Shown: piece after piece, positions 5,042 to 32,660 of the stretch | Layout of the letters: each line of letters starts with the position of its first letter | How positions within the stretch are numbered: position 1 is the stretch's first letter | IMG/VR virus record: IMGVR_UViG_3300038435_000063 | Location: 1-49,572 of that record | Length of the DNA stretch: 49,572 nucleotides | Source of the DNA: a virus | Strand: one strand, 5' to 3' | Program-made: the position numbers and the translations under genes | Notes under the pieces: model-generated | What the model saw: the letters and a program-made list of their open reading frames with translations, nothing else | Databases searched by the model: none | Told to the model about the DNA's origin: nothing

Positions 5042-5095
5042 AGCAAACATTATACCAAATGCCATTATGGTAATGGAAGATTACCTTACCTAAAA

Positions 5096-8026: not shown

Positions 8027-9559
8027 TTATCCACTGGAACTTGAGAAGCTACTAGAACTCCGACTGCTGCTAGAACTAGAATGGCTGCTGGATGAACTGC
8101 TGCTAGAACTAGAACTGCTGGAGCTAAAGGAACTACTGCTGAAACTGATGCTGGAGCTTGAGGAACTGCTACTGCTGCTCATGCTTGACGAACTACTGCT
8201 GGACATGGTAAAGCCACTGTCTGCAATCGTCGGGCTGAGCGCGGTTGGCAGCATCATGTCCAGGTTCTTCATCCCTAGCATCCGGTCAAACATGGTCTGA
8301 TGCGTCTTGAAGTTGATCGCGCCGCCGTAGTTGTTCGCAAACTGGATGCTGAAATAGTCGTTGTCCAGGAAGTTGACGGACCCGCTAAAGACCGCGATGG
8401 CTGGCCCGCCCACATAGAACACGGACATGGCCCCGAGCGCAAGGTGATCGATATAGACAGACTTATTGACTTGCAGGGCAGTGCTGAGCCGGACCCGGAG
8501 CTTGACCACTGCCGGGATGTTGTGCGGCGTTCTGAAGACGCCTGACACTTTCTGCCAGCCGTAGGAAACCCCGGTCAAGTTCTTGCTGATCGTATTGGCA
8601 TTGCCAGAATCATCGTTGATGACTGCGCCAGTGCTGTCAATTAGGTCAACAGCCAGGACGCCTTGATTCGGGAAACCATCGCAGCGGACCACGAAATTGA
8701 CAGCGTATTGCGTGCTGTCCTCAAGCTCGCCTGCCGTTTCATCTCCGAACTCTTGCGTAAGGCTGGTCAGTTCTGTTCCGTTGCCTTTGATTTTCAGGCT
8801 ACCCGTACCAGTGTAAAACGTGCTGGCATCGTGAAAGATCGTCGTTCCCGCCGTGCCGGTTACAATCGTCCAGTCATCCGGCGCGTTGCTGGTCCAGTCC
8901 TCGAAGTCCGAATTGGTGAGCAAGTTCCCCTTGGTGTTGTCCGATCTTGCGTCAATCGCGTTCAAGGTCAGGCTATTGCCGGAGCCTGCGGGGAAGTCAA
9001 AATTGAGCAACGAGGACGGGGCTTCCGCACCAGTTACCGAAAAGGTTTCCGCGAACTCCAAGGCAGACGAATCTATCCCATCCTGGATGACGATGGCCTG
9101 AACCCGTTCCGGAACGAGGTTTTCCTGATCCCTGCCGTCATAGCGCTTGGTATCAACCACGCACGTGCCGTTGCCAATGTTGATGGCTTGGGCGGCAACA
9201 TTCACGGCGACGGTGCATTTCTGAACCGTCTGGCTGTACTGGATCATTTGCCGGATAAGTTCCTTTACCGCCGCTTCAATATCGAAACGAGACAGCTGCG
9301 GGGAATCGTCGTTGACGGTTTTCAGGATGGTGTTTTGGTAGGACTGTTGCAGGAAACCTAGGATGGTGCCGACTGCGTTTTGCTCGGCAGCTTGCTGGCC
9401 TTCAATGCCGTCAATGCTGGCAAAATCACTGCCCGAATACTGCGACAGGATAAAGTTTATCGCATTCGGCAGTGTACTGCGCTGAAAGCTATTGATGTCC
9501 GCATGAGCATTTCCGATAGCCGCTAGGCGACTGAACAGGGTACTAAAAGTTATAGCCAT
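8027..9559 (-). CDS. Tail fibre/receptor-binding-like protein with carbohydrate-binding module and poly-serine tail
   Basis: 510 residues in three parts. About residues 1–165 are helical (virion attachment?). About residues 205–375 form a CBM4/9-like jelly roll (NLLTNSDFEDWTSNAPDDW ... GTGSLKIKG ... YAVNFVVRC ... RTPHNIPAVVKLRVRL). The last about 60 residues are almost pure serine broken by single M, I, F, H or R residues. Carbohydrate-binding modules on phage tails usually contact surface glycans, so a role in host recognition is inferred. CTATATA (9566–9572) lies six bases before the ATG, with no good ribosome site. It is a single-gene unit closed by the terminator at 7821. Confidence 0.65.
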   Translation of the reverse strand: MAITFSTLFSRLAAIGNAHADINSFQRSTLPNAINFILSQYSGSDFASIDGIEGQQAAEQNAVGTILGFLQQSYQNTILKTVNDDSPQLSRFDIEAAVKELIRQMIQYSQTVQKCTVAVNVAAQAINIGNGTCVVDTKRYDGRDQENLVPERVQAIVIQDGIDSSALEFAETFSVTGAEAPSSLLNFDFPAGSGNSLTLNAIDARSDNTKGNLLTNSDFEDWTSNAPDDWTIVTGTAGTTIFHDASTFYTGTGSLKIKGNGTELTSLTQEFGDETAGELEDSTQYAVNFVVRCDGFPNQGVLAVDLIDSTGAVINDDSGNANTISKNLTGVSYGWQKVSGVFRTPHNIPAVVKLRVRLSTALQVNKSVYIDHLALGAMSVFYVGGPAIAVFSGSVNFLDNDYFSIQFANNYGGAINFKTHQTMFDRMLGMKNLDMMLPTALSPTIADSGFTMSSSSSSSMSSSSSSSSSSISFSSSSFSSSSSSSSSSSSSSHSSSSSSRSSSSFSSSSG

Positions 9560-10264: not shown

Positions 10265-10298
10265 ATAGATAAAGGAGCATAAACCCCGGAGGTATCCT

Positions 10299-11966
10299 AT
10301 TTCAGTCCTGACATACAACGGCATCTCGCTTGATATGATTCACACGAAAGATTTTTCGCAGAAGCCTATCTACACTCCTGACGGGGTTGATTACTTGTAT
10401 ACCGAAATAACTATCGTGGTTCAGGCAGTTATAAACTCTAACCTGTTACCAGCCATCATGGGCGAGAATACCGTGAACATCATGAACCGGATACGATCCT
10501 GTTTACTTTGCGTCCGCAAGCAACTGATCTTTTCCATTGATGATAACGAACTGGTTCATAGTCCAGCGAATGGGGAATTGTGTGATTGGCATTTCGGTCC
10601 CAAGCCCAACTATTGCAACATCACGCAAATTACCGGCTCCGAAACCATGCTGATTGACTACTCGGTAACGACCAACGTCAAAGAATGCTGCAACGCTGGC
10701 ACCGCCGGCGGCAATGTTCCTGCCAACGACGTCCAGAGCAATCAGCCTTACTTGTCTAACCGCTGGGCGGAAAGCGTCGCCATTGATGAAAGCTTCTATA
10801 CGACGCGCACGAGGAGAGGAGTTCTCTACTTCAAGACAAACGGGACTGCCGGACCAGTGAGCGCGAACCCGGATGATTACCGCCATGTAATTTGCCCGCC
10901 GCTTATTAAGGGCTTTGTCCGTCAGCGCAGCACATACGCGATTGATGAAGGCAACTGGACCCTGGCTTATGAGTTCACGGACAAAGAGGAATACCACGTG
11001 CCGCCCGTGCCGGCAACGAAGTTTGAAATGGACCATCAGATTATCAGCAACATGGGTGCAATCCACTTCCAGGAGGTATCGATCAGGCTTTGGGGTGCCA
11101 AGACTACCAAGAAGAAAGATTTGATTATGTTGGCGGTCCAGATGCTGCAATCCCGCCTGAAAATATCCCGAACTGCCATCGTCAAAACGGCAACGATCAG
11201 CGACAAGAGCCATGAAAACTATGTGGACTTGCGAGCCAGGTTGATGGTTACAGCCAAGCAGAACAATACCTTTGGCTTCAATGCCCTGTTCAACAACGAT
11301 TACCTCGATAAGTTGTTCGGCGAACCCGGCGACCAGCGCCCGCCTGACCCCGGAACACGGGGAACCGCAATGCTCAAGATCATCGGGCCAGCCATGAACG
11401 ATGCTTGCTTGTGCGCGGGGAAGTCCATGAACTCGCCAGATGACGGAGTGAAGGGCAACGAGCTACCGCCCGGAGGTGCGATACCGCCGGCAGTCGTGTT
11501 CGCAGCAGACTTGCCGCCATTCGGAACCGTGGTTCCCTTGGATCAAGGCGAACTGGCGAACAAGATCATTACCGATTACAAGATCGACGTGAATTACATT
11601 ACCTTTAATCACATTGCCCAAATGCCGGTTGCCGGGGGTTCCAAGGTAGCAGCCTTTGCCGTGGTGGCAAATCCGACCGTCAAGAAAGTGGTTGATTTCA
11701 CGGTCGAGAGCATCGGGGAAAAGGCGCACATCCCCGATCCAGAGAACGGCAACCCGAACGAGGTGCTGGAGAATACGCAAATCATGCCGGCAGCTGCGGA
11801 TGTTGGCCCGAATGGCGAGAACATCAACCGCCTGACCGGGCGCTATACTTACGCCGTGGTCGATCCGAGCAAGGTTGTTTACAGTGGAGGTTCTCTGCCT
11901 TATGTAACTACTGGCAAAGACGCTGCTACTTACAAGAAACAGCACTTTGAACAGGGCTTGATTTAG
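10299..11966 (+). CDS. Phage structural protein; probable ATT start codon
   Basis: 555 residues if started at ATT 10299. The first ATG in frame (10335) has no ribosome site. A perfect GGAGGT at 10290 lies five bases before ATT, and the frame from there reads SVLTYNGISLDMIHTKDFSQ, which looks like a genuine N-terminus and is similar to the start of the gene at 5107. There are no membrane segments; the protein contains several cysteines and a proline-rich C-terminal third (PDPENGNPNEVLE). A baseplate, tail-tip or other virion role is inferred from size and position. CTAGATA occurs at 10261–10267, overlapping the stop of the upstream endonuclease gene. Confidence 0.6.
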   Translation: MSVLTYNGISLDMIHTKDFSQKPIYTPDGVDYLYTEITIVVQAVINSNLLPAIMGENTVNIMNRIRSCLLCVRKQLIFSIDDNELVHSPANGELCDWHFGPKPNYCNITQITGSETMLIDYSVTTNVKECCNAGTAGGNVPANDVQSNQPYLSNRWAESVAIDESFYTTRTRRGVLYFKTNGTAGPVSANPDDYRHVICPPLIKGFVRQRSTYAIDEGNWTLAYEFTDKEEYHVPPVPATKFEMDHQIISNMGAIHFQEVSIRLWGAKTTKKKDLIMLAVQMLQSRLKISRTAIVKTATISDKSHENYVDLRARLMVTAKQNNTFGFNALFNNDYLDKLFGEPGDQRPPDPGTRGTAMLKIIGPAMNDACLCAGKSMNSPDDGVKGNELPPGGAIPPAVVFAADLPPFGTVVPLDQGELANKIITDYKIDVNYITFNHIAQMPVAGGSKVAAFAVVANPTVKKVVDFTVESIGEKAHIPDPENGNPNEVLENTQIMPAAADVGPNGENINRLTGRYTYAVVDPSKVVYSGGSLPYVTTGKDAATYKKQHFEQGLI

Positions 11967-11981
11967 TATGTAGCATTTTGT

Positions 11982-11987
11982 TATACT
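11982..11987 (+). promoter_or_regulatory. TATACT box, leaderless promoter of HNH gene
   Basis: TATACT lies six bases before the ATG at 11994, with TTGATT (11958–11963) 18 bases upstream. Transcription would begin at or next to the start codon; there is no ribosome site. Confidence 0.55.
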
Positions 11988-11993
11988 TGGCCA

Positions 11994-12629
11994 ATGAGTT
12001 ACCGACCATATAAGTATTATGTAGAACAAGGGATTTGCCCCGTCTGTACAGTTAGGCAACCTGAACCCGGATCAAGGATTTGTGAAAGTTGCAAAGCGTA
12101 TTCACGGGAACGAAAGGCATCCAAAAAGGAAAAGGGCATTTGCGTCGATTGCGATAATGTCGCTTTATCTGGGCGCGTAGTCTGCCAATTGTGTCTTGAT
12201 AAGGAACGAGCCAGGGCTAAGAAGCGTTACGCACGGGCGGTTGCCGAGCATCGGTGTTACAAGTGCAAGTGTGAAATTGAAGCGGGTAAAGGGCAATGCG
12301 CCGATTGCAGCAATAGTCTTCGGGCAATTACACGGAACAGACATCGACAGGACTTCCAACTGATCCTAGATTATTATGGCAGGCGCTGCAATTGTTGCGG
12401 TGAGACGAACGAGCTGTTTCTAACTGTGGACCATATCAACCGGGATGGGGCGGAACATAGAAAGAAGATTGGCGACGTTTACCGATGGCTTCGCCAGCAC
12501 AACTTCCCGGAAGGCTTTCAGATACTGTGCTACAACTGTAATTGCGGGCGCGAACGATGCAACGGGATTTGCCCGCATGAAATTGCCAGGAAGACACGGG
12601 ATGAACTCGCATATCACTTTGCCATCTAA
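11994..12629 (+). CDS. HNH endonuclease with zinc-finger N-terminus
   Basis: 211 residues. Four CxxC-type knuckles fill the first half (CPVC, CESC, CVDC, CQLC, CYKC, CADC), interspersed with basic helices. The HNH core follows: CNCCGETN, LFLTVDHINRDGAEHRKK, YRWLRQHNFPEGFQILCYNCN and CPHEIAR. This matches a common phage HNH family of free-standing homing endonucleases. It lies between virion genes and its stop overlaps the stop of the convergent tape-measure gene by four bases. Confidence 0.85.
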   Translation: MSYRPYKYYVEQGICPVCTVRQPEPGSRICESCKAYSRERKASKKEKGICVDCDNVALSGRVVCQLCLDKERARAKKRYARAVAEHRCYKCKCEIEAGKGQCADCSNSLRAITRNRHRQDFQLILDYYGRRCNCCGETNELFLTVDHINRDGAEHRKKIGDVYRWLRQHNFPEGFQILCYNCNCGRERCNGICPHEIARKTRDELAYHFAI

Positions 12630-13489
12630 CCCACGACAGGACGTTGCGGACGCCACAATTTGGCCTTGTCTTCGGTTTCGTTCAGCCAGCCGGCAAAGGT
12701 ATTCATCGGTTCGGACTGCCGCCGTCTGGTTTCAATGCCAAGGAATTGCAGGATGTCTTGCAGGACGCCCAGGGCTGGAACTGCCCATTGTTCCAGGAAC
12801 CATTTCTCCACGCCGGCTAGTTCTTCCGCAATGCTATTTTTTATATTGGCTAGATCGGCGTCTATATCGCTCCAGATGTCTTCGAGGGGTGCGCGAGCCT
12901 TCATCAAGTCTTCCGTGCTGCCGGAAGTGGCTTCGCCGGTTTTGATGTCCCGCATGAATTTCGCCGCATCTTGGTTCGCGAACAGATTGGCCATCGTTGC
13001 TGATGCTTCGGCGAAGCGTCTGTTCCCTTCCAGAACCTCCCGCCCGAAGTCCCGCAAGGCTGGTGCCGCTTCGGTCATCGCCTTTGCCCATTGATAGATG
13101 ATTCCAACCGCTACAGCAGCCCCGGACGCCATGCCGCCAGCCAATGAACCGCCGCCCGCTGAACCGCTGCCGCCGCTGGAGAGCAACTTTTGCAGCCCGG
13201 CATTGCCCAGCGAATTTGCCGCTGAGCCAACCAGATTGCCGACGCCACGCCCGGACAAGCCCCGGATGTTGCCAACTATCTGGTTCGGCAAGTTCCGTGC
13301 GCCCTGGACCATGTTGGTAATCCGCTCGGCACGTTGGGCTTGCGTTTCCTTGACTGCCCTTTCCTTGTTTCGCTCGGCATTCAGGGCTTTCTCGGCTTTG
13401 GCTTGCTTCTGTGCGGATCGGTCGGCAGCAGCAGCGCGAGCATCCATTTTTTCCAGGATTTGTTTCAGGTCATCAAGCGTTGCTGCCAT
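12626..13489 (-). CDS. Probable tape measure protein (short)
   Basis: 287 residues. An N-terminal coiled coil (about residues 1–60, rich in A/K/E/R) is followed by a glycine/serine/alanine-rich stretch, a hydrophobic segment (GGMASGAAVAVGIIYQWAKAM, about residues 120–138) and more helices. It directly follows the frameshifted tail chaperone gene, the conserved place of tape measure genes in siphophages. It is short for the family; tail length scales with tape length, so a short tail would be expected. An AGGAGAAT ribosome site precedes the ATG. Confidence 0.6.
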   Translation of the reverse strand: MAATLDDLKQILEKMDARAAAADRSAQKQAKAEKALNAERNKERAVKETQAQRAERITNMVQGARNLPNQIVGNIRGLSGRGVGNLVGSAANSLGNAGLQKLLSSGGSGSAGGGSLAGGMASGAAVAVGIIYQWAKAMTEAAPALRDFGREVLEGNRRFAEASATMANLFANQDAAKFMRDIKTGEATSGSTEDLMKARAPLEDIWSDIDADLANIKNSIAEELAGVEKWFLEQWAVPALGVLQDILQFLGIETRRRQSEPMNTFAGWLNETEDKAKLWRPQRPVVG

Positions 13490-13977
13490 TTATTCTCCTT
13501 TTGCCCGAATGCCGCTGAACGCCATGCCGATACCACGGGCTATTTCTGCTGCTCGGTATTCCATCATTACTTTGCCGTTGAAGTAGAGTCCGCAGAGGGT
13601 TTCGTAATCGGACGTTTGCGGCATGGCTTGCGGGCAGGCGGCAACGATTTCGGCAAGACTACGGGCTTTTTTTTTAGAGCGGCGATGTATTCCAGGAAGT
13701 CGTTGACCAGCAGAAAGGCATCTGCCGTGCTGAGGTGCTGGGCTTCGGGAAAGGCTTGGCGGGCATTGTTGGCAATCCGGTCAATGGCTTCCAGCTGGGC
13801 GAGGTCTACCTTGTCTTCTACTGCCGTTAGTTGCACGGTTGCCAGTTTCCAATCGTCGAAAAAAGCGGATTCCTTCCAGGACCGCAAGGCGATATTCACC
13901 TTGATGGGATCAGCCTTGACGACCTTTTTGCCGTTATGGAATTCGTAGATATTGAGAACATTAGTTGGCTTGAACAT
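13490..13977 (-). CDS. Tail assembly chaperone pair made by -1 frameshift (gpG/gpGT type)
   Basis: The zero frame (13567–13977) gives a 136-residue protein; a -1 shift on the run of nine A's (minus-strand reading of 13667–13675, codons CTA AAA AAA AAG) gives a fusion of about 162 residues. The shifted frame reads ARSLAEIVAACPQ ... SDYETLCGLYFNGKVMMEYR and ends at 13490, one base before the tape measure start. This copies the lambda G/GT arrangement: shared N-terminus, shifted C-terminal extension, tape measure next. Such proteins help assemble the tail tube and are not in the virion. CTATATT lies six bases before the ATG, with no clear ribosome site. Confidence 0.8.
13667..13675 (-). promoter_or_regulatory. 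Slippery sequence for -1 ribosomal frameshift
   Basis: Nine A residues on the minus strand (AAA AAA AAG in the zero frame) allow tRNA-Lys to slip back by one base. It lies in the overlap of the two tail-chaperone frames, where lambda-like phages keep their frameshift site. Confidence 0.75.
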
Positions 13978-14011
13978 ATAAGTAATATAGCAATTAGCAT
14001 ACCAATTATGC

Positions 14012-14017
14012 TATACT
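14012..14017 (+). promoter_or_regulatory. TATACT box before HNH-AP2 gene
   Basis: TATACT lies seven bases before the ATG at 14025. No convincing -35 or ribosome site is seen; a leaderless transcript is implied. Confidence 0.45.
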
Positions 14018-14024
14018 ACTATCT

Positions 14025-14711
14025 ATGGCACGATACAAAGATTTGACAGGATTTCAGTTCGGCAGTTTGACAGTTTTAGAATATGCCGGCAATGAGGACA
14101 AGAACGGCATCAAGCGCGCCTTGTGGAAGGTTCGCTGCTCATGCGGGGTAGAAAAGACTTGCCGGGCGGGAGTTTTACTCGCGGGGGCAAAAACCTGCGG
14201 ACTCGCAACACATTCAACCGGCATTGTGGAAGTGTTCGACGATCATGTAATTATGCATCTGACAAAAGGGCAGGTTGCCATTGTAGACCGCGATGCTTAC
14301 GATTCAATGCCCGTACTTCGTCGCCAGTGGTATGCGTCCTATTCCGGCGCAGCATGGTACGCCACAAAAAACAAGAGGCTGATGCATCGGCTGATAATGA
14401 ATGCGGAGCCGGGGCAGGAGGTTGACCACATTAGCCACGATACGCTTGACAACCGGCGAGCGAATCTGCGCATCTGCAACCATCAAGAAAACTGTAGCAA
14501 TTTGTTGGCGCGAAAGAACAAGAAGACCTCAACTTACAAAGGGGTTTACTATGAACAGGACCGAGACAAATGGGTTACACGGGTTTATTGCAAAGGACAC
14601 AAGCGCTTCTTTCAGAGATTTGACACGGAGATCGAAGCAGCCCTTGCCTACAACGAACAGGCAGCGAGGTTGTTTGGCGAGTATGCTTATCTGAATCCGA
14701 TGCCCGCCTAA
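14025..14711 (+). CDS. HNH-AP2 homing endonuclease
   Basis: 228 residues. The N-terminus has DLTGFQFGSLTVLEYAG and CSCG–x–C, a small DNA-binding knuckle seen in phage HNH proteins. The HNH module is MHRLIMNAEPGQEVDHISHD, DNRRANLRICNHQEN. The C-terminus is an AP2-type domain (STYKGVYYEQDRDKWVTRV, ... AALAYNEQAARLFGEYAYLN), which contacts DNA. This is a standard free-standing homing endonuclease layout. It converges on the tail tube gene, with stops overlapping by four bases. Confidence 0.85.
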   Translation: MARYKDLTGFQFGSLTVLEYAGNEDKNGIKRALWKVRCSCGVEKTCRAGVLLAGAKTCGLATHSTGIVEVFDDHVIMHLTKGQVAIVDRDAYDSMPVLRRQWYASYSGAAWYATKNKRLMHRLIMNAEPGQEVDHISHDTLDNRRANLRICNHQENCSNLLARKNKKTSTYKGVYYEQDRDKWVTRVYCKGHKRFFQRFDTEIEAALAYNEQAARLFGEYAYLNPMPA

Positions 14712-15208
14712 GAGCAAGACGACGTCCATAAGGCTGCCCCGCTGCTGATGCCAGACTGATAAACCGGCAAGGCTCGGAACTCAACACGTGGCGTACTCTT
14801 CCGGGTGCCGAACTTGTAAGTAACATTTTCCAGATAGCAATTCGCAAACTTGTAACAAGGATTGGTGCCAGCAACGCCAGTGCCGCTAGGGGTTGACCGG
14901 ACAACCAGAGCAAACTTAAGGTTTTGAATATCGATCAAGGTGCCGACGCTACCCATTAGGCCAAGCCCGCCCGCGCCAAAGTCCATCGCGGTATTCAGAA
15001 CTGATTGATCGAAATAGACTAGCTCGGCACTGATCCTTGCGGACATGCCCATATATTGAACTTGTGCCGGGGTTGCCCCGAAGTTGTCTGCCGGAACGTC
15101 TTCGGTGATATGTGTTACCGTAACTTCCACGCCGTCAGTAGTGATGCCAAGGGTGCTGCCGCCGACCAGCAAAACAGCCGATCCAAAAACGTTAAAACTC
15201 TGCGCCAT
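14708..15208 (-). CDS. Putative major tail (tube) protein
   Basis: 166 residues, beta-rich: MAQSFNVFGSAVLLVGGSTLG, TTDGVEVTVTHITEDVPADNFG, then ARISAELVYFDQSVLN. The pattern resembles tail tube proteins, and it sits directly upstream (on the minus strand, apart from an inserted endonuclease gene) of the chaperone and tape measure genes, as the tube gene does in siphophages. CTAAATA (15215–15221) and AAGG precede the ATG. Identification is by context and fold impression only. Confidence 0.6.
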   Translation of the reverse strand: MAQSFNVFGSAVLLVGGSTLGITTDGVEVTVTHITEDVPADNFGATPAQVQYMGMSARISAELVYFDQSVLNTAMDFGAGGLGLMGSVGTLIDIQNLKFALVVRSTPSGTGVAGTNPCYKFANCYLENVTYKFGTRKSTPRVEFRALPVYQSGISSGAALWTSSCS

Positions 15209-15279: not shown

Positions 15280-15948
15280 ATGAAAACTATTGAACTTACA
15301 AAGGGCATGGTCACGCAAGTTGACGATGATGATTTTGAGTACCTGATTCAATGGAAGTGGTGCTACAACGGCTATGCGTTCCGCGCCGCTGGCGGCAAGA
15401 AAGCCACCTACATGCACCGCGTTATTATGAACGCGACTTCAGAGATGCACGTCGACCATGTTGATCGTGATAAACTAAACAATCAGCGATCTAACTTGCG
15501 GCTGGCAACCCGGTCAGTAAACGCACAAAACCATGACAAAAAAAGAACCGACAGAACGTCTTCTTACAAAGGCGTCAGTTGCCGGGACGGTGCGTATTCC
15601 GCATGCATTACGAAGAATGGCAAAATCTTCCATATTGGGTCATACGACGATGAATTGGCGGCAGCCATCGCTTATGACAATGCTGCGCGGGAGTTGTTCG
15701 GTCCTGATGCCAAGACGAACTATCCGCCCGAATTGGCGTTCATACCAAGCAAGCGCCGTAAGCGGGTCTCGCAGTATCGCGGAGTGACGTTTCAACCCAA
15801 GCAGAGCCTGCGCCCGTGGGCGGCAATTCTTTGGTATGCCCCAAGGAAATGCAAGTTTCTTGGCGGCTTCAAAACAGAGTACGAGGCTGCTGTCGCATGG
15901 GACAAAGCAGCAAAAGACTATCCGGCAAAGAAACTGAACTTTGGTTAG
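15280..15948 (+). CDS. HNH endonuclease with two AP2 domains
   Basis: 222 residues. HNH part: YMHRVIMNATSEMHVDHVDR, LNNQRSNLRLATRSVNAQNH. Two AP2-like DNA-binding domains follow: SSYKGVSCRDGAYSACI ... AAAIAYDNAARELFG, and SQYRGVTFQPKQSLRPWAA ... AAVAWDKAAKDY. The two domains may read two half-sites. The gene lies between tail tube and connector genes and shares four bases of stop codon (TTAG) with the convergent connector gene. Confidence 0.85.
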   Translation: MKTIELTKGMVTQVDDDDFEYLIQWKWCYNGYAFRAAGGKKATYMHRVIMNATSEMHVDHVDRDKLNNQRSNLRLATRSVNAQNHDKKRTDRTSSYKGVSCRDGAYSACITKNGKIFHIGSYDDELAAAIAYDNAARELFGPDAKTNYPPELAFIPSKRRKRVSQYRGVTFQPKQSLRPWAAILWYAPRKCKFLGGFKTEYEAAVAWDKAAKDYPAKKLNFG

Positions 15949-16439
15949 GGAAACCGCTGCTCACGTCTCGTATTAAAATACCGGCTTGCCTGGAACGCAG
16001 CCAAGTTTAGATCAGCGTATTCAACCGCGCTCATGAAACCGCTGGTAGTGTTGTGGGCTTCCTGAACTCCAACCACGTTAAAGATGCGTTCCCCGAAGCG
16101 TAATTGCTGCAAGGTATTTTGAGCATCCGCCCATTGCGGGTAAGGGCTGGTATCAATGCCGCGCCGCTGAACCAACAGAATGAAAGCCAGGTTGCAAGTG
16201 AGCCGAACGAGAAAGGATTGGTCTGCCCCGGTCAGGCCAGTAAGATCGGCAGCGGTATATCTGCCGCCGACAAAGGCAGCGGAATTGACCAGCCCGGAAG
16301 CATCGTCCAAGGCGGTTTCAACGGCATCGTTCGTCAGGATGTCGGTTTCGTTGATGCGGACGCCGTTATCATAAAGCAAGTCGCCTATGATCCGGGCATC
16401 GTTGCGGGCTAGTAAGTCTGATGGTGTCGCATATGCCAT
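15945..16439 (-). CDS. Head–tail connector-like protein (DUF1320-like)
   Basis: 164 residues, starting MAYATPSDLLARNDARIIGD, followed by DDASGLVNSAAFVGGRYTA and a run of helices. This start and the helical layout are like DUF1320 (Mu gp36-type) proteins that act between head and tail. The Mu-like portal and head genes elsewhere in this prophage support this. CTAAATA (16444–16450) is four bases before the ATG; the TAA within it is the stop codon of the upstream gene. Confidence 0.6.
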   Translation of the reverse strand: MAYATPSDLLARNDARIIGDLLYDNGVRINETDILTNDAVETALDDASGLVNSAAFVGGRYTAADLTGLTGADQSFLVRLTCNLAFILLVQRRGIDTSPYPQWADAQNTLQQLRFGERIFNVVGVQEAHNTTSGFMSAVEYADLNLAAFQASRYFNTRREQRFP

Positions 16440-16739: not shown

Positions 16740-19700
16740 TTATCCACAGCCTTTCGCTTTCCATTCGGGATTGCTGCCGGCAAGCCATTTAGTCCAGGCT
16801 CCCGCCTGCCATTCGGGGATCGGCTCGCCAGTCCATTCCTTGCCCGGCTTGGCCTTCCATTCGGGGATCGGCAGAGCAAGCCAGTCATCCGACAGTGCAT
16901 TCCATTCGGTCCAGGCATCCGCCTGCCATTCCTTGACCTTCGGGCTGGTCAATTCGGTCCAGGCATCTGCCTGCCATTCCTTGACCTTCGGGCTGGTCCA
17001 AGGCACCAGAGGAGCGGCAACCCAATCCGCACAAGGCTTGGCCAAGGTCCAGGCGGATGAACTGCTACTGAAACTACTGCTGGAACTGGAACTGCTGGAT
17101 GAACTGCTGCTGGAATAGCTGCTACTGGACGACGATGACGAACTGCTGCTTGAGAAACTGCTGCTGGAACTGGATGAAGAACTACTGCTGGAACTGGATG
17201 AACTTGAGGAACTTGAGCTACTAGACGAACTGCTGCTGGAACTACTGGAGCTTGAGCTACTAGACGAACTGGAACTGGATCGGCTTGACGACGATGAAGA
17301 CGATGAACTACTGCTGGAACTTGAAGACGAACTACTGCTCGAACTTGAAGACGAACTAGATGAACTACTGCGCGACGAACTGCTTGACGAGGACGAACTG
17401 CTGCTGGAACTTGACGAGCTTGAAGAACTGCTAGAACTGCTGGACGAAGAACTGCTGCTGGATGAAGACAGCGAACTGCTGCTGGAACTAGAAGAGCTTG
17501 AGGAACTGCTGCTAGAACTAGAAGAGCTAGAACTACTGGACGAACTGGAACTGGATCGGCTGGATGAAGACGAAGAACTACTGCTTGAGAAACTGCTGCT
17601 GCTGCAACCGACGATGTTGTCTCCAGCCTGATACGAGCCTATCACCCATCCAGCTACTTGCGTTACTGCGTTGTTATTTGTTAAGCCATTGGACCCGATG
17701 TAGTCTTTGCCAAGGTTGCCCGCGTTGTCCATGTCCCATCCGGACACGACGCCCCACGCGCTCAACTGGCTCGCGGAGATGTCTTTGGCTGCCCGCCCGG
17801 TGCCGCCATTCCAAAGGCTGTCCCGGATACCAGTAATCAGGCTGGCAATTGCCGTGGACGGTTTCAGGAAGACAACGGCATCGATTTGCCCGGTCCAGAG
17901 CGCGGCAGGATCGTTGAACCCGCCGATGACCATTGCTTGGTTGTTCGTGGTTGTCGTGAAGCTCCGGGTAGCGGTAACGAACGCACTGCCGTCAACGCTG
18001 ATGCCAATCTGGTTATTGGCCACATCCTGATAACCGATGGCGAAATGCCAGAGGCCATCAGCCATGCCGGCAACCGATCCCTGGACTTCCTGGAAACTGC
18101 CGGCGCTGTTGATACCGAACCGAGCGCGCTGGATGCTGGTCTTGTAGATGTACCAGTCGCCTGCGCCGGCTCCGAAAGTGGACTTCGCAACCAAGCCCCG
18201 GTCATTGGCGTTTGTCGTCTTGAACCAGCAAGCCACAGCGAAATCGACGTTGCCGGTCTGCAAAGTGGCATTGCTGGCGATGCTCAGATATTGCGTGTTC
18301 GCCACATTGAAGTTGCCCGCACCAGCAGCCAGGATGATGGCAGCGCAGGACTGAGACGACGAACTACTTGAACTGCTCTGGCTGCTACTGGATGACGAAC
18401 TCCTACTGGAACTGGAAGAACTGGACCGGCTAGAACTGCTGGAACTTGAACTTGACGATGAACTGCTGCTGGAAGACGACGAACTGCTTGATGATGAACT
18501 GCTGCTGGAGCTTGAGGAACTACTGGAACTGCTCAGGCTTGACGACGAGGACGAACTACTGCTGGAACTTGAGGAAGAACTGCTTGATGAACTGCTGCTT
18601 GAGAAACTGCTGCTGGAACTTGATGACGAACTACTGCTAGAACTAGACGAGCTTGAACTACTGGATGAACTGCTGCTGGATCGGCTTGACGACGATGAAG
18701 ACGATGAACTACTGCTGGAACTTGAGCTACTTGAGGAACTGCTTGAACTACTGGATGACGAACTGCTACTTGAGAAACTGCTACTGGACGATGACGACGA
18801 GCTAGAACTTGAGGAAGAACTGCTTGACGAACTGCTGCTGGAACTAGAGGAACTGCTTGAGCTGCTGCGCGATGAACTGGAACTTGAGGAAGAACTACTG
18901 CTGGAACTTGAACTACTTGAGCTTGAGGAACTGCTGGAACTGCTCAGGCTTGAACTGCTGGATGAAGACGAACTGCTACTGGAACTTGAACTACTTGAGG
19001 AACTTGATGAACTGCTGCTGGATCGGCTAGAGGACGAAGATGAAGAGGACGACGACGAGGATGAACTGCTACTGGAACTGCTTGAACTTGAGGAACTGCT
19101 GGAACTACTGCTAGAGAAACTGCTAGAACTTGAGGAAGAACTACTGCTTGATGACGAAGACGAACTACTACTGGAACTGCTGCTTGACGAAGACCGGCTA
19201 GAGCTACTGCTGGACGATGAACTACTACTGGAGGACGAACTGCTTGAGCTAGACGAGCTAGAACTTGACGAAGAACTGCTGCTTGAGAAACTGCTGGAAC
19301 TACTGGATGAAGAACTGCTTGAAGAGCTACTGCTGCTTGACGATGAAGACGAACTGCTGCTGGATCGGCTAGAGGACGAGGACGAGGACGAACTGCTACT
19401 GGACGAAGACGAGCTTGAACTACTGGAAGAACTGCTGCTGCTAAGGCTACTGCTTGACGACGAAGACGAGCTTGAACTTGACGAACTACTGCTGGAACTT
19501 GAACTGCTGGAACTGGAAGACGAGCTACTGCTTGAGCGGCTAGACGACGAACTTGATGAAGAGCTACTGCTAGACGATGAACTGCTTGAGCTTGAGGAAC
19601 TACTGGAACTGCTCAGGCTGCTGCTTGAACTGGACGAAGAACTTGACGATGAAGAGCTACTGCTGGAACTACTTGAAGAACTGCTGCTGCTCAGGCTTGA

Positions 19701-20081
19701 ACTGCTTGACGAGGACGAACTGCTGCTGGAACTGCTCGAGCTTGAGGAACTGCTTGAACTGCTACTGGATCGGCTAGAGGACGATGACGAAGACGAACTA
19801 CTGCTGGAACTAGAACTGCTAGAACTAGAACTACTTGAGCTTGAGGAACTGCTGGAACTGCTCAGGCTTGAACTACTGGACGATGACGAACTGCTGCTGG
19901 AACTTGAACTGCTTGAGCTACTTGACGAACTACTGCTGGACCGGCTTGAAGACGATGAACTGCTGCTGGAACTTGATGAAGACGAGCTGCTGCTCGAACT
20001 AGAACTGGATGAACTAGAAGATTGTCCGAAGGGCAGCCCGCAGAACGGCAACCCAGCAATTGCGTCAAATGAAAAGCCCAC
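16740..20081 (-). CDS. Giant poly-serine protein with LamG/lectin-like domain
   Basis: 1113 residues. After about 20 residues (GLPFCGLPFGQ) comes a nearly pure serine tract of over 500 residues, interrupted about every 25–30 residues by one L, R or F. A LamG/concanavalin-type domain follows (about 575–825: LSIASNATLQTGNVDFAVACW, WHFAIGYQDVANNQIGISVDG), then a second serine tract and a C-terminal tryptophan repeat (KEWQADAWTE ×2, IPEWKAK, IPEWQAG). TCN and AGY serine codons are mixed, so the tract is kept as protein rather than by DNA slippage. GTG at 20081 is chosen because CTACATA lies five bases before it. A long fibre or glycosylated stalk is inferred. A hairpin (AAGCCCAC/GTGGGCTT) overlaps the start. 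Confidence 0.7.
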   Translation of the reverse strand: MGFSFDAIAGLPFCGLPFGQSSSSSSSSSSSSSSSSSSSSSSSSSSRSSSSSSSSSSSSSSSSSSSSSSSSSLSSSSSSSSSSSSSSSSSSSSSSSSSSSSSSRSSSSSSSSSSSSSSSSSSSSSSSSSLSSSSSSSSSSSSSSSSSSSSSSSSSLSSSSSSSSSSSSSSSSSSSSSSSSSRSSSSSSSSSSSSSSSSSSSSSSSSSSSSSSLSSSSSSSSSSSSSSSSSSSSSSSSSRSSSSSSSSSSSSSSSSSSSSSSSSSFSSSSSSSSSSSSSSSSSSSSSSSSSSSSSSRSSSSSSSSSSSSSSSSSSSSSSSSSFSSSSSSSSSSSSSSSSSSSSSSSSSSSSSSRSSSSSSSSSSSSSSSSSSSSSSSSSLSSSSSSSSSSSSSSSSSSSSSSSSSRSSSSSSSSSSSSSSSSSSSSSSSSSSSSSSFSSSSSSSSSSSSSSSSSSSSSSSSSSSSSSRSSSSSSSSSSSSSSSSSSSSSSSSSFSSSSSSSSSSSSSSSSSSSSSSLSSSSSSSSSSSSSSSSSSSSSSSSSSSSSSSSSSSRSSSSSSSRSSSSSSSQSSSSSSSSQSCAAIILAAGAGNFNVANTQYLSIASNATLQTGNVDFAVACWFKTTNANDRGLVAKSTFGAGAGDWYIYKTSIQRARFGINSAGSFQEVQGSVAGMADGLWHFAIGYQDVANNQIGISVDGSAFVTATRSFTTTTNNQAMVIGGFNDPAALWTGQIDAVVFLKPSTAIASLITGIRDSLWNGGTGRAAKDISASQLSAWGVVSGWDMDNAGNLGKDYIGSNGLTNNNAVTQVAGWVIGSYQAGDNIVGCSSSSFSSSSSSSSSSRSSSSSSSSSSSSSSSSSSSSSSSSSSSSLSSSSSSSSSSSSSSSSSSSSSSSSSSSSSSSSRSSSSSSSSSSSSSSSSSSSSSSSSSSSSSRSSSSSSSSSSSSSSSSSSSSSSSSSSSSSSSSSSSSSSSSSFSSSSSSSSSSSSYSSSSSSSSSSSSSSFSSSSSAWTLAKPCADWVAAPLVPWTSPKVKEWQADAWTELTSPKVKEWQADAWTEWNALSDDWLALPIPEWKAKPGKEWTGEPIPEWQAGAWTKWLAGSNPEWKAKGCG

Positions 20082-20098
20082 GTGCGTATGTAGTGGGC

Positions 20099-20440
20099 TT
20101 AGATGTCTTCCTCAAGCCAGCTGGCGACAAACTGCAATTGATTGGTTGTTACCGATCCAGACAGGACAAACGTGATGCTCTTGGCGGTTGAATCCAGCAC
20201 ATATAAATCTTCCTCTCCTAGCACAAGCGAATCGTTGGGCGCTAGTAGCATTTTGCTAATGATCCGTGTTCCGCCGCTGCTCACATACCGAACCTCAACC
20301 GTGGCGTTCACGGTATCGCCTTGATAAATATTAACCGCTTTCACCAGCCGTCTTTTGCCGCTGGCGGGGGCTGCTACTATCGTTACTGGCGTTGTGTTGT
20401 TGCTGGTCCCGTCATTGCTCGCTATTGAATATCCCGCCAT
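20099..20440 (-). CDS. Small virion protein, beta-rich
   Basis: 113 residues from the ATG in a TGATG overlap with the gene upstream, so the two are translated together. Sequence such as ASGKRRLVKAVNIYQGDTV and VEVRYVSSGGTR and the final QLQFVASWLEED are typical of small fibre or neck proteins. No family name can be given with confidence. It lies in the tail-fibre region next to the poly-serine protein. Confidence 0.6.
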   Translation of the reverse strand: MAGYSIASNDGTSNNTTPVTIVAAPASGKRRLVKAVNIYQGDTVNATVEVRYVSSGGTRIISKMLLAPNDSLVLGEEDLYVLDSTAKSITFVLSGSVTTNQLQFVASWLEEDI

Positions 20441-20778
20441 CAAATCCTCATGAAGCTTCTCACTACTTGCTCTTGTGCTAGGTCTGCCGGGTAGGGAAGG
20501 AATACGTCCTTTGTCCCGGCACTGAAATTGACGATGCTGCCGCTATTGCTGCTGGCCAAGATGACCGCTCTGGTTAGCGTGGTTCCGGATGCAGTGTAGA
20601 CGGCGATGCCAGTTTCCCATTCGCTCGCGGTCTGATGTGCGATGCAGTAATACGTCTTCTGCCCGTCGCCAACGACGCTAAATGAACGGTAGCCTTGCGC
20701 TGCCCCTAGCAGGGTTAGCGGGCTGGTTGTTCCAGAAACAACGCTGGTCTCGCGAACACGGTCATAAACATTAAGCAC
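20440..20778 (-). CDS. Phage fibre-associated protein (DRVRET domain)
   Basis: 112 residues. DRVRETSVVSGTTSPLTLLG, GYRSFSVVGDGQKTYYCIAH, EWETGIAVYTASGTTLTR and NFSAGTKDVFLPYPA match a domain I recall as common in tailed-phage virion proteins of unknown exact role. The start is GTG at 20778, supported by ATAGATA (20783–20789) four bases upstream. It is coupled by TGATG to the next gene. Confidence 0.7.
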   Translation of the reverse strand: MLNVYDRVRETSVVSGTTSPLTLLGAAQGYRSFSVVGDGQKTYYCIAHQTASEWETGIAVYTASGTTLTRAVILASSNSGSIVNFSAGTKDVFLPYPADLAQEQVVRSFMRI

Positions 20779-20824: not shown

Positions 20825-21997
20825 ATGCTAAACTTTGTCGGCTATGACTGGACAGTAACGGTAACGGTTGGCGAGCGGTCCTATACGGTTGGCAGCTGGC
20901 CTGATCGCTGGGAAGCGGAATTCTTTGATGTCAAGGCAACGGCGGTTGCCAAGGAACAGCCTGAGATTTTTGAGCAATGCGCATCCACAGACGAATTGCG
21001 AAGGTCGCTCAAGCGAGCCAAGATCGGGCGATTATCCGGAACAAAATGGGATGAGAAGATTGCCGCCGCTAAGGAGTGGATATGGACGGAAAAGGACCAG
21101 CCAACGGTGAGGCGGGAAAAGGACCAGCCAACGGTGAGGCGGGAAAAGAGAACAGCAAGAACCTTTGCCTACAACGGTGAAGCCCTGACCGTGCGCCAAT
21201 GGGCGGAACGCTTCGGCTTGCCAAGAAAATTCATTCACTGCCGCTTGCAACTTGGCTGGACGGTTGGCGAAGCCCTGACCGTGCCGAAAGGGGGTCAGGG
21301 AGTGAAGCAGCGAAAGCAGCCCAAACCAGCGAAGCCCAAGCCGAGAAAGGCTCAGCCGGGAGCCTGGTTGCATGTCCCGCTGACCTACCGGGGCAAAACT
21401 CAGACGCTGCTTGAATGGGCCAAAAAAAAAGGCATCAAGGCGTTTGTCTTGCATGAACGGGTAAAGTGGGGCTGGCCCGTAAAAAAGATCATGACCACGC
21501 CCGTCGATCCCGCTTGGGTTATGCCGGCAGAAGAACCGAAACCATCACCCAAGGCAAGGCGGTTGACCCATCAAGGCGAGACCTTGGCCTTGAAGCAATG
21601 GGCGGAACGGATCGGCATCGGTTATCTGACGATCAAGGGACGGGTTGCACGGGGCTGGCCCGTGGAACGCATCCTGGAAGCCCCGTTGCGGACCCGCAAG
21701 ACCATCACCCATCAAGGCAAAACCCTGACCATCCGCCAATGGGCGAAGGAAACCGGCATTGCTTACAACTTGCTGCGGGATCGGCAGTTGAAGGGCTGGC
21801 CCGTGGAACGGCTATTCCAGCCCAAGGAATGCGAAATGAAACTGACCTATCGGGGGATCAGCCAGACCGTCAAGGCATGGGCGGCAGATGTTGGCGTACC
21901 AGCGCAAATCCTCTGGCAACGGTTGCGGCGCGGATGGGACGTCGAAAGAACCCTGACCACGGCGATACCAGCGAAAGCACACTACGCTAGTGCATGA
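20825..21997 (+). CDS. WPDRWEAE-domain protein with five tandem HTH-like modules
   Basis: 390 residues. The first 60 contain WTVTVTVGERSYTVGSWPDR and WEAEF, shared with the protein at 35682. Five modules of about 40 residues follow, each reading like (T)YxGxTxTLxxWAxxxGIxxxxLxxRxxxGWPxExxL: for example AYNGEALTVRQWAERFGL and THQGKTLTIRQWAKETGI. Single copies of this module end some phage HNH proteins, where it is thought to contact DNA. Five in a row with basic linkers suggest a multi-module DNA-binding protein. A 27-bp tandem duplication lies between the first domain and the modules. The stop overlaps the glycosyltransferase start (ATGA). Confidence 0.65.
   Translation: MLNFVGYDWTVTVTVGERSYTVGSWPDRWEAEFFDVKATAVAKEQPEIFEQCASTDELRRSLKRAKIGRLSGTKWDEKIAAAKEWIWTEKDQPTVRREKDQPTVRREKRTARTFAYNGEALTVRQWAERFGLPRKFIHCRLQLGWTVGEALTVPKGGQGVKQRKQPKPAKPKPRKAQPGAWLHVPLTYRGKTQTLLEWAKKKGIKAFVLHERVKWGWPVKKIMTTPVDPAWVMPAEEPKPSPKARRLTHQGETLALKQWAERIGIGYLTIKGRVARGWPVERILEAPLRTRKTITHQGKTLTIRQWAKETGIAYNLLRDRQLKGWPVERLFQPKECEMKLTYRGISQTVKAWAADVGVPAQILWQRLRRGWDVERTLTTAIPAKAHYASA
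21089..21142 (+). repeat. Tandem 27-bp duplication inside the module protein
   Basis: 21089–21115 and 21116–21142 are identical and encode the repeated peptide EKDQPTVRR. The identity suggests a recent duplication in a linker. Confidence 0.85.
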
Positions 21998-22965
21998 AAA
22001 GAATCTTTATGTTGATCCCTGATTACACGGCATGCGGCTACTATCGGGCCATCATGCCAGCAGTCCATTGCGCTGAGCAACTGAAGGCGGAAGGGATTGA
22101 GCTAGTCGCCAGCCCGAACCTCGATATCCGCGAGCAATACGATGCCTACATCCTGCATCGCTTCCCTACGGTCAAGTTCTGCGCCCATCTATCGGAACTG
22201 AAAAAGCGAGCCAAGATCGTTTGGGAACTGGACGATGACCTTTGGCAGTTGCCCGCCTGGAACCCGGCAAGTGGCGAGGTCACTGCCGTTGATTTGGAAA
22301 ACCTGGATGCCGCCCTAGACCTTTCCGATTTCATTATCGTGTCAACGATGCCGCTCCTGAAAGTGGTTGGCGAGCAGCGCCCTTGCGTGGTCTGCCCGAA
22401 CTTGATCGATTGCAACTGGTTCCCGCCGGATGTGCCGGACTGGGACCGCAAGCCCCGTGTCCTCTGGACCGGCAGCAAAAGCCACGTCATGGATGCCGGT
22501 TGCCCCTCGCTGGATACCGCCATAGCTGCCAATGCGGGCAGGATCAGGCTTTCCACGTTCGGCTGCTGGGCGAAATTCGCCTTGGCCCATGAACATATCG
22601 ATCCCGTGCCGTTTACCGACTACTTCGCCAAGCTCGGGGAAATCCGCCCGCACATCGGCATCTGTCCGCTGTTCCATTGCCGCTTCAACCACTGCAAATC
22701 AAACCTGAAATATCTGGAACTGGCTGCCGGGGGAGCCTGCGTCATTGCGCAGGACATGGCTCCCTATGACTTGATTGACCACGGGGAAACGGGGCTGCTG
22801 GCTCAATACGATTGGGAATGGCAGTTGTCGTTCTTGCTGGACTGTCCGAAAGACGCTAGGGAAATAGCTGCTGCCGGGCAGGAATACGTGCGGCGGGAAT
22901 GGTCTTGGCAATCGGGCAAGGGCAAGGACGTCTGGCTGGATACCTTCCGCATGATCGCGGCTTAA
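21994..22965 (+). CDS. Glycosyltransferase (GT-B fold, GT4-like)
   Basis: 323 residues. The N-terminus reads FMLIPDYTACGYYRAIMPAV, and the C-terminal half has the sugar-nucleotide-binding pattern KSNLKYLELAAGGACVIAQD followed by YDLIDHGETGLL. This is typical of GT-B glycosyltransferases with activated-sugar donors. It is cytosolic, with no membrane segment. The start overlaps the stop of the preceding gene (ATGA), so the two are co-translated. It lies next to the poly-serine and fibre genes, so a virion serine tract is an attractive acceptor, but the acceptor could also be a host surface glycan or modified DNA. Confidence 0.75.
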   Translation: MKRIFMLIPDYTACGYYRAIMPAVHCAEQLKAEGIELVASPNLDIREQYDAYILHRFPTVKFCAHLSELKKRAKIVWELDDDLWQLPAWNPASGEVTAVDLENLDAALDLSDFIIVSTMPLLKVVGEQRPCVVCPNLIDCNWFPPDVPDWDRKPRVLWTGSKSHVMDAGCPSLDTAIAANAGRIRLSTFGCWAKFALAHEHIDPVPFTDYFAKLGEIRPHIGICPLFHCRFNHCKSNLKYLELAAGGACVIAQDMAPYDLIDHGETGLLAQYDWEWQLSFLLDCPKDAREIAAAGQEYVRREWSWQSGKGKDVWLDTFRMIAA

Positions 22966-30719: not shown

Positions 30720-32660
30720 TCAGCCAACTCGACGCTTGGGACGCCGAACGTTTACTACCGGATTCCACGGTTGTACAGCATGGAATTCCGATGCCAGGAT
30801 GTAACGCAAGGCATCAACGCAATGGTTATCCTTGTCCACGGGCTTATCAAGGAACTCATGCCATTGGTACGTCCGGAGTTCCCGAATCAGATTGGTGCAG
30901 TCCCTGGAAATGTAAAGCTTAGGCTTGCCGTCTGCCGCGAGCTTGAGATGCTGCTGGACTACATTGATGCCCGCCTTGATATCCTTCTTGGCTGGCGTGT
31001 TCGGCAAGCCCCGGATGCGGAACTCTGCACGCTCCTGCAAACCGCCGTAGTCCGCATAGGTCATCCAGTTGTCGTTCCAGCTCTTCGCCTTGATCGCTTC
31101 GACGTGTTCCTCAATTGTCGCTTCCCTACGGAAGTATTCATCGTAAACATAGTAGCGCCCTTCCCGGTCACGCGCTGCGAAAATGCAGACGGTCGGATGG
31201 TTGTAACCGAAGTCCAGCCCGCGAAAGTGGGGCCAGTCATCCGGAATGTGCCTTGGCTGGATAACATGAATTGCCGGGTTGAAGGACTTGTAAACCGATC
31301 CGTAGTAGCTGCTAAACGCGCCGATCCTTCTCGCTTCCCGTTCTTCCTCAAGGCAGTTGTCCAGAATGCGACGGATGGCACCGGGGGCAACCTTGTCATT
31401 GCATTCCCCATTCATCCGGTAAAACTTCCAGTCCGTGTAGCGCTCTTGGTTTTCGTAAATCTGTTCTATGTACGGATCGGGCCTAAGTGGCGTAAGGCTG
31501 TAAATCTGGCTGCCGGGGTAATGGTAATCACGGCACCGCGCCCAAATGGACCCAAGCCGATCCGGGCTGATTTGTTCGTCAATCCAGAAACCGCCGATGG
31601 ACGATGCTTCAAACTTCTCTTGCTCGCTTTCGCCAGACTTCATTTCAATAACCCAGTTGTTACCGTGCGCATCGTTTTTCAGGATGACGGTAAGGGGTTG
31701 CTGCTGTCGCTGGCTGTACCACGTGTAACCGGCTATTGCGCTTCGCGGAATGAACCGGGACATGTGGGTTTGCCAACACGTGCCAATCGATTTATCGAAG
31801 GTTGGGCCAATGATCCAGATTGGACACATCGGGCGAGGTGGCGGGGTTTCCAGGATGTGCGTTGCCATCTTTGCGGCAGCCACGATGGATTTACCGCTGT
31901 TGTGATGCCATACCCCGCTCAGTTCGTAATTGTGGTTCTTGGCAACGGTTAGATCATAGAACCGATCTTTTTTCACATAGCGAACTTTGGTAATATGGGG
32001 GCATGAAGCAAAAGTATCCTTGGCCACTAGAGGCAATGAAAGACCTCTACACGTCTGGCCTTGAAGTTGTGCATCACATTGACAATAACCCTGGCAACAA
32101 TGCCATTGAAAACCTCGCCCTGTTTGCGAGCAATGCCGATCATCTGCGGGAAACCCTGGCTGGTAAATGCCCGAACTGGAGCGCAGCGGGCAAGGCTCGG
32201 ATAGGACGTGCTTTAGAGGCAGCCACTGACCGGCGGCGCACAAAACCCGATGCGCCAAAGTCGCCACGAACTGGCAACCATTGGACAGCGTAAACTCGTA
32301 TAGGTCGGCAATGCCCTTCACGAATGGCTTTGACGCCAGTGCAATCTCCCGCTGCCCCGTCTGCTCATTCAACGAATGGACGTGGAACGGTCCTGCAATT
32401 TGGTCCAGCCTGCAATACTCTTCCGCTATCGGATCATAAAGTTCCGTCCAGCCCGCAAGACAGCCCGTTCCACCTAAGCAACAAGCGATGCCGTTGAACT
32501 TCTCGGTTAGAAAACTGGTCTGCTGGTCATAAAGTTCCGGCTGGTCAGGACGAGGCTCGAAGTTCCGCAACGGTAGATTGAGCGCATCGTGAAGCAAGGC
32601 AATTAGCTTCTTGTCCTTGCTCTTCAGGATCGTTTCAATTTCGTCGTCAGTGAACTGCAT
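30720..32660 (-). CDS. Terminase large subunit interrupted by an intein
   Basis: 646 residues as read; 458 after removal of a 188-residue intein (residues 67–254). The exteins join as LGGTG + SGKSIVAAAKM, a complete Walker A motif. Walker B is GGFWIDEQ. The C-terminal nuclease has FRGLDFGYNHP, YADYGG and DKDNHCVDALRY, with the three expected acidic residues. The enzyme packages DNA into the prohead, using ATP and cutting DNA. It follows the small subunit gene by 15 bases. CTAGATA (32665–32671) lies four bases before the ATG. Without splicing the ATPase would lack an intact P-loop. Confidence 0.9.
   Translation of the reverse strand: MQFTDDEIETILKSKDKKLIALLHDALNLPLRNFEPRPDQPELYDQQTSFLTEKFNGIACCLGGTGCLAGWTELYDPIAEEYCRLDQIAGPFHVHSLNEQTGQREIALASKPFVKGIADLYEFTLSNGCQFVATLAHRVLCAAGQWLPLKHVLSEPCPLRSSSGIYQPGFPADDRHCSQTGRGFQWHCCQGYCQCDAQLQGQTCRGLSLPLVAKDTFASCPHITKVRYVKKDRFYDLTVAKNHNYELSGVWHHNSGKSIVAAAKMATHILETPPPRPMCPIWIIGPTFDKSIGTCWQTHMSRFIPRSAIAGYTWYSQRQQQPLTVILKNDAHGNNWVIEMKSGESEQEKFEASSIGGFWIDEQISPDRLGSIWARCRDYHYPGSQIYSLTPLRPDPYIEQIYENQERYTDWKFYRMNGECNDKVAPGAIRRILDNCLEEEREARRIGAFSSYYGSVYKSFNPAIHVIQPRHIPDDWPHFRGLDFGYNHPTVCIFAARDREGRYYVYDEYFRREATIEEHVEAIKAKSWNDNWMTYADYGGLQERAEFRIRGLPNTPAKKDIKAGINVVQQHLKLAADGKPKLYISRDCTNLIRELRTYQWHEFLDKPVDKDNHCVDALRYILASEFHAVQPWNPVVNVRRPKRRVG
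31899..32462 (-). other. Intein in the terminase Walker A motif
   Basis: 188 residues. Block A begins at C1 (CLAGWTELYD). Block B is TLAH near residue 68. Blocks F/G read FYDLTVAKNHNYELSGVWHHN, here split as FYDLTVAKNHNY and ELSGVWHHN, with Asn188 and the next extein residue Ser. All splicing residues (Cys1, block B Thr/His, His-Asn, +1 Ser) are present, so it should splice. No in-frame endonuclease motif is seen; residues about 95–150 are an odd Gln/Cys/Gly/Ser-rich linker. That stretch is the complement of a plus-strand HNH gene (32003–32293). Confidence 0.9.
32003..32293 (+). CDS. HNH endonuclease encoded antisense within the intein
   Basis: 96 residues. VVHHIDNNPGNNAIENLALF and SNADHLRETLAGK match the conserved core of the HNH_3-type phage endonucleases (HH, xxN, H). 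It lies wholly inside the intein coding region but on the other strand, opposite intein residues 57–153. TAATAT six bases upstream and GGGGGC before the ATG give a possible start signal. It would serve as the homing enzyme for the intein in trans. Confidence 0.75.
   Translation: MKQKYPWPLEAMKDLYTSGLEVVHHIDNNPGNNAIENLALFASNADHLRETLAGKCPNWSAAGKARIGRALEAATDRRRTKPDAPKSPRTGNHWTA

Follow-up and report, generated by a model that had tools for sequence, protein, structure and literature searches.

Two long, punctuated poly-serine tracts around a LamG domain: candidate display stalks in a phage protein from an uncultured virus

Architecture of the poly-serine gene

The window, meaning the whole stretch of 49,572 nucleotides analysed here (IMG/VR record IMGVR_UViG_3300038435_000063), carries on its minus strand a single open reading frame (ORF) in which 735 of 1113 residues are serine, in agreement with the first-pass annotation, which had put the serine content at two thirds (Table 1). 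The segment between the two serine tracts, when searched on its own, matched PF13385 at 42.1 bits (curated cut-off 27.6; E 1.2e-10), supporting the LamG-like domain that had been placed there; the whole ORF gave no Pfam match, and the domain appeared only with the segment excised. Pfam identified no catalytic domain in the whole ORF or its excised segments and no match for the tryptophan-rich repeats at the C-terminus. The LamG segment had no relatives among the viral contigs and phage records searched and no match in a PDB sequence search, and its single-sequence AlphaFold model (pLDDT 31.7) was set aside.

The GTG start codon sits inside the 3' arm of an inverted repeat, which an inverted-repeat scan with a loop limit of 8 did not list; because the GTG lies in this hairpin, the true start of the ORF may differ. 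Serine tracts had also been claimed for the proteins starting at 5107, 6603 and 8027, of which only the last has one; the other two contain SSMSSSSS, close to the end of the protein (5107), and SSSSSSS (6603), both of them trivial.

Table 1. Positions of the poly-serine ORF, its parts and other features in the window
Feature	Position	Strand	Description
Poly-serine ORF	16740..20081	minus (start 20081)	GTG start, 1113 aa, no internal stop
N-terminus of poly-serine ORF			20 residues, before tract 1
Serine tract 1	18351..20021	minus	residues 21-577, Ser 535/557
Laminin_G_3 (concanavalin-like lectin) segment	17604..18350	minus	residues 578-826; Pfam match ~595-737
Serine tract 2	17055..17603	minus	residues 827-1009, Ser 175/183
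Tryptophan-rich C-terminal repeats	16743..17054	minus	residues 1010-1113 (104 residues)
Hairpin-like inverted repeat	20075..20099	minus	AGCCCAC/GTGGGCT, then TTT; seen by eye
Second serine-tract protein	8027..9559	minus	C-terminal tract, residues 453-509; CBM_4_9 just at cut-off (25.9 bits)
Two small genes upstream of ORF	20099..20778	minus	
Mu gp36-type adaptor gene	15945-16439		on the other side of the poly-serine ORF from the two small genes
Glycosyltransferase, phage-type	21994..22965	plus	PF13524, 27.4 bits (cut-off 25)
Large serine recombinase	45094-47073		
DAHP synthase	47616-48629		

Punctuation and spacing

The serine is punctuated by R, L or F, which recur every 26 or 31 residues over most of tract 1: the first 16 of its 21 intervals between non-serine residues are 26 or 31, and the final five are 23, 36, 8, 8 and 9. 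The intervals of tract 2 are looser (11, 29, 33, 30, 42, 13 and 15). Periodicity analysis of the non-serine residues showed a spacing more regular than random placement in both tract 1 (p<0.001) and tract 2 (p 0.03). As 17 of the 28 interrupters in the two tracts are two changes away from any serine codon, many of them are not one-step decay of serine.

Codon usage, selection on serine and growth of the tract

The serine codons of tract 1 are mixed, as had been noted, with 266 AGY and 269 TCN. Over both tracts, TCN codons use all four third bases and end in a purine in 192 of 355 cases, whereas AGN codons end in C or T in 354 of 355 and in a purine in 1. If third bases drifted freely, AGN would turn into arginine about as often as TCN gains a purine; therefore, serine itself is selected, and the window tracts are under purifying selection for serine. 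With tracts below 60 aa and listed duplicates removed beforehand, 33 other viral tracts contained 75 AGR vs. 2652 AGY codons, 39 of the 75 being in the tract of locus L086, where K and R are punctuation residues, and 32 bacterial tracts contained 0 AGR vs. 1563 AGY.

The repeat units of tract 1 were compared over the 16 intervals of 26 or 31, with five of the 21 left out. Agreement in codon class (AGY or TCN) was 0.68 over 60 pairs vs. 0.50 after shuffling, the largest value among 300 shuffles being 0.545, and in the best pair the class was the same at 24 of 25 codons, with the third base identical at 17 of 24. This class agreement, together with the third-base divergence, demonstrates that tract 1 grew by duplication of 26- or 31-codon blocks followed by silent divergence.

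The codon patterns of other phages were also compared. In the orthologous pair L120/L164, the 174 tract codons show 45 silent differences and 8 that alter the amino acid; outside the tract the counts are 95 and 27 in 371 codons. The tract of a second pair, L083/L114, differs by 106 silent changes and, counting against the stalk reading proposed below, by amino acid at 42 of 227 aligned codons; these differences include interrupters exchanging L with R or with S, and therefore the punctuation itself drifts. We placed no weight on L084/L103, a pair whose flanks fail to align, and L089 and L090 are identical over their overlap.

Low-complexity DNA with related repeat units might also arise by neutral expansion of a codon repeat through recent slippage, which we regard as most improbable here, since the codons are mixed, AGR is almost lacking and the units have diverged at third bases. 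The earlier argument, that serine is selected and that the tracts did not arise by recent slippage, is thus supported by the third-base asymmetry, the silently diverged units and the orthologous pair elsewhere. It is also very unlikely that the true gene lies on the other strand or that the tract is misassembled. Of the opposite frames, one is open and reads as L/E/D, and a poly-serine frame of an Erwinia phage lies opposite an annotated acidic ORF; against this, the third base follows the class of its own codon, as serine coding demands, and the LamG reading frame is continuous with both serine tracts. The 31-mers are nearly unique, only 38 of 1641 in tract 1 (1671 bp) being non-unique, with a longest exact repeat of 47 bp, and nothing in the assembled sequence of this tract points to a repeat collapse.

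Within the tract, AGC followed by TC and TCG followed by AG are under-used, a bias that may come in part from the general avoidance of 4-base palindromes by this phage; a special code in the codon pairs was rejected. Over positions 3401-45000, excluding the poly-serine ORF, 4-base palindromes are under-used, GGCC being lowest at 0.34 of expectation, as if restriction were being avoided.

Genomic context

A Mu-type portal gene lies in the same region and on the same strand as the poly-serine ORF (late-gene context), and together with the gp36-type adaptor gene this context indicates that the poly-serine protein is probably part of the virion. It might instead be a moron product that the lysogen secretes or carries on its surface: the inverted repeat in front of the ORF may serve as a terminator that isolates it from the genes upstream, and a Gemmatimonadota operon described below pairs a poly-serine protein, exported-looking by eye, with a glycosyltransferase gene. 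We consider this unlikely, given that the ORF shares its strand and region with the portal and adaptor genes and that poly-serine proteins elsewhere bear tail-type or head-type domains.

Judging from the large serine recombinase and the Planctomycetota-like DAHP synthase, the window is probably a planctomycete prophage. The DAHP synthase is 69% identical to its counterpart in a Pirellulaceae MAG, and 36 of the 246 Planctomycetota genomes searched have a match to it at E<=1e-120; a portal search in 392 Planctomycetota genomes gave no match and, having no positive control, shows little.

For the small upstream gene at 20440-20778, viral contigs contain at least 589 relatives. Among 60 loci with such a 20440-type gene (the number examined of 80 fetched), 29 encode a protein ending in tryptophan repeats within 300 bp of it, and in 3 more that protein overlaps it. 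Homology with the C-terminus of the window ORF is not claimed, because the tryptophan spacing is ~10 in those proteins vs. ~8 in the window.

Poly-serine tracts in other phages

Using one nine-codon mixed poly-serine pattern, with tracts called by a separate score that penalises clustered interrupters slightly and equally across all groups, we found 75 matching viral stretches, of which 63 have a tract, and at least 118 matching genome stretches, with 68 having a tract among the matches listed. The longest tract in a viral contig is 1161 aa. Interrupters are mainly R, L, K, Q and F in viral tracts and mainly G and T in bacterial ones, and the regularity of spacing exceeded random placement (p<0.05) for 16 of the 25 viral tracts tested, both window tracts and 1 of 7 bacterial tracts.

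In a survey of 122 neighbouring ORFs (chosen out of 212) from 18 loci, the neighbours of poly-serine genes in other viral contigs matched several portal, capsid/head and tail families (Pfam); this variety means that the trait is common to unrelated phages. Among 48 non-serine segments of poly-serine proteins (the window's own and 47 of 65 listed others), Laminin_G_3 was present in 7 and CBM96 in 2. The 188-kb viral contig L416, which also has a gene of the GT9 family described below, encodes a 1556-residue ORF (10289-14989, plus) with 853 serines in several tracts.

Very long homopolymeric serine, which is usually taken for low-complexity noise, is thus selectively kept in structural-looking phage genes. 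In a survey of 102 phage proteomes, the longest low-complexity region is given as 115 residues (PMC6821194), vs. 557 in the window and 1161 in the longest viral tract. Long phage poly-serine proteins were not described in the titles and abstract openings of the open-licence papers that the literature searches listed.

Glycosyltransferases linked to the tracts

Matches to PF13524, PF00534 or PF00535 above cut-off were found in 10 of 26 poly-serine records, 1 of 24 20440-type controls and 6 of 50 random records, four of these six having one common 333-aa gene; the corresponding counts for Methyltransf_24 were 7/26, 0/24 and 1/50. Either type was present in 14 of 26 poly-serine vs. 6 of 50 random records, and without four duplicate records in 12 of 22 vs. 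6 of 50 (Fisher p 0.0003, ignoring kinship within groups).

Genes beside the poly-serine genes of L086, L093, L114 and L139 form one family by blastp, with Pfam Glyco_transf_9 scores of 24.7 (cut-off 22), 21.8, 15.4 and 13.3 bits. The GT9 profile built from these four genes matched 5 of 63 poly-serine viral loci, four of the five being seeds or on the contig of one seed, and most such loci (58/63) have no GT9 gene in the DNA examined. Elsewhere, it matched 5 of 68 listed poly-serine genome loci, none of 50 tract-free genome loci and none of the 208 other viral loci. Of the five matches in genomes, four look like one Gemmatimonadota-type operon; the operons of L235 (5435-6346, minus) and L266 (375-1331, plus) combine the GT9 gene with genes for an exported-looking poly-serine protein (signal judged by eye) and for a long protein that looks secreted. 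Fusions of GT9-like and GT4-like domains lie beside or near poly-serine genes in L139 (6675-9404, minus) and L275 (2068-4314, plus).

In the reciprocal test, viral contigs were searched with the GT9 family alone, and a strict serine tract was observed in 37 of the best 80 of 143 relatives, among which near relatives of the seeds are favoured because the seeds were taken from beside tracts. The tract was present in 29 of 60 loci after clustering at 90% GT9 identity and in 34 of 76 once four contigs connected with seeds or with a previously found poly-serine locus were removed; in 29 of the 37 loci the nearest tract lies upstream of the GT9 gene on the same strand. None of 276 control loci had a strict tract (random 0/116, 20440-type 0/80, window-type glycosyltransferase 0/80), and with the requirement relaxed to 24 Ser in 30 the counts were 48/80 for GT9, 0 for random and 20440-type loci and 1/80 for the window-type glycosyltransferase.

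The model of the GT9 family (45 sequences, pLDDT 93.6) matched a Veillonella GT9 (Z 23.2), TibC (20.5) and heptosyltransferase II (20.2); the modelled family is thus GT9-like, with TibC among its best matches and no nearer than other GT9 enzymes. Four cysteines are invariant in the family, of which three align with the iron-finger cysteines of TibC and the fourth is displaced. TibC, a heptosyltransferase, has been reported to modify serines and not threonines (PMC4358343). Two family members had no match among 50,697 phage records.

The linkage between GT9 and the tracts suggests serine-O-glycosylated stalks at the level of the class, and we predict that the serines of such stalks in many uncultured phages are probably O-glycosylated by the linked TibC-type GT9. 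The window has no GT9 ORF, the best window ORF scoring E 0.28. Its own glycosyltransferase lies on the opposite strand, 1.9 kb from the start of the poly-serine ORF, and is weakened as a candidate modifier by the strict-tract count of its family; the neighbours of LR756511, its nearest relative, include no serine tract, and a PDB sequence search with it gave no match. On these two grounds, the missing GT9 and the 0/80 of its own glycosyltransferase family, we regard serine glycosylation in the window phage itself as possible but doubtful.

Relation to known systems and proposed function

Polyserine linkers, TibC-type glycosylation and mycobacteriophage capsid glycosylation are already known. 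Polyserine linkers occur in carbohydrases of Saccharophagus, Teredinibacter and Cellvibrio, where near-pure serine separates carbohydrate-related domains (PMC2386152, PMC2699552). The window protein resembles them in that serine, at least about 80% in such linkers and 96% in both window tracts, adjoins a carbohydrate-binding domain. It differs in that the linkers span tens of residues in secreted catalytic enzymes (in Teredinibacter, an average of 44 residues and 83% Ser), whereas the phage tracts span 557 and 183 residues in a protein with no catalytic domain; tract 1 is more than ten times longer and regularly punctuated, and its interrupters are R, L and F, in contrast to the G and T of genome tracts.

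Serine-rich repeat adhesins of the Fap1/GspB type are built of Ser-X dipeptide repeats, whereas the window tract is almost pure serine, broken by lone residues at intervals of mostly 26 or 31. Autotransporter heptosyltransferases (BAHT), TibC among them, act on serine-glycosylated adhesins and combine a GT9-type GT-B fold with an iron finger of four cysteines. TibC and the linked family have a common GT9 fold, and three of the four invariant cysteines of the family align with iron-finger cysteines of TibC, although the family is equally close to other GT9 enzymes; no such GT9-like gene, expected in the record of a substrate of a linked GT9 or BAHT enzyme, is present in the window record. The gp53 baseplate protein of T4-like cyanophages, a virion protein by annotation, has a C-terminal mixed-codon serine run of fewer than 30 near-pure residues, in which no regular punctuation or lectin domain was seen. 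In the mycobacteriophages Che8 and Rita, major capsid proteins are glycosylated by presumed phage-encoded enzymes, and the available part of that report mentions no poly-serine stalk (PMC11256854).

Based on this evidence, we propose, with a probability of about 0.55, that the ORF product is a fibre-type protein of the phage in which two poly-serine stalks present a LamG carbohydrate-binding domain. The tracts would form long, polar and flexible stalks holding LamG away from the particle, LamG would bind host or surface glycans, and the R/L/F punctuation may have a role in the stalk. At the class level, the linked TibC-type GT9 would O-glycosylate the stalk serines; in the window, glycosylation would require a host or unrelated enzyme, or may be absent.

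A tentative alternative is that the tracts are unmodified disordered linkers, longer versions of the carbohydrase type with serines free of sugar. The same layout of serine between carbohydrate-binding domains (PMC2699552) and the absence of GT9 from the window are consistent with it; the length of tract 1 relative to the Teredinibacter average, the regular bulky or charged punctuation and the association of tracts in other phages with a family resembling serine glycosyltransferases argue for the stalk reading instead. A broader reading, which we hold at even odds, is that poly-serine stalks and TibC-like GT9 enzymes constitute a widespread, undescribed serine-O-glycosylation system of uncultured-phage fibres, in which bulky residues would space glycan blocks and whose enzyme the window phage would have lost or would borrow. 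Under this reading, the system, including the Gemmatimonadota operon, would either descend from autotransporter heptosylation or have converged on it. The tract–GT9 linkage makes phage protein glycosylation directly testable by co-expression of two genes.

Other features of the window

The Walker A motif of the terminase large subunit (30720-32660, minus) seems to be interrupted by a small intein, with Pfam Intein_splicing at 23.6 bits, below the cut-off of 35.8. ORFs at 9626, 11994 and 23063 (plus) and 4346-5065 (minus) look homing-endonuclease-like by eye, with no Pfam match, and HNH/AP2 homing-endonuclease-like ORFs (14025-14711 and 15280-15948, plus) lie on the opposite strand among the late genes. 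The ORFs 20825-21997 (plus) and 35682-36272 (minus) consist of repeated short helix-turn-helix-like motifs, the former running four bases into the beginning of the glycosyltransferase gene.
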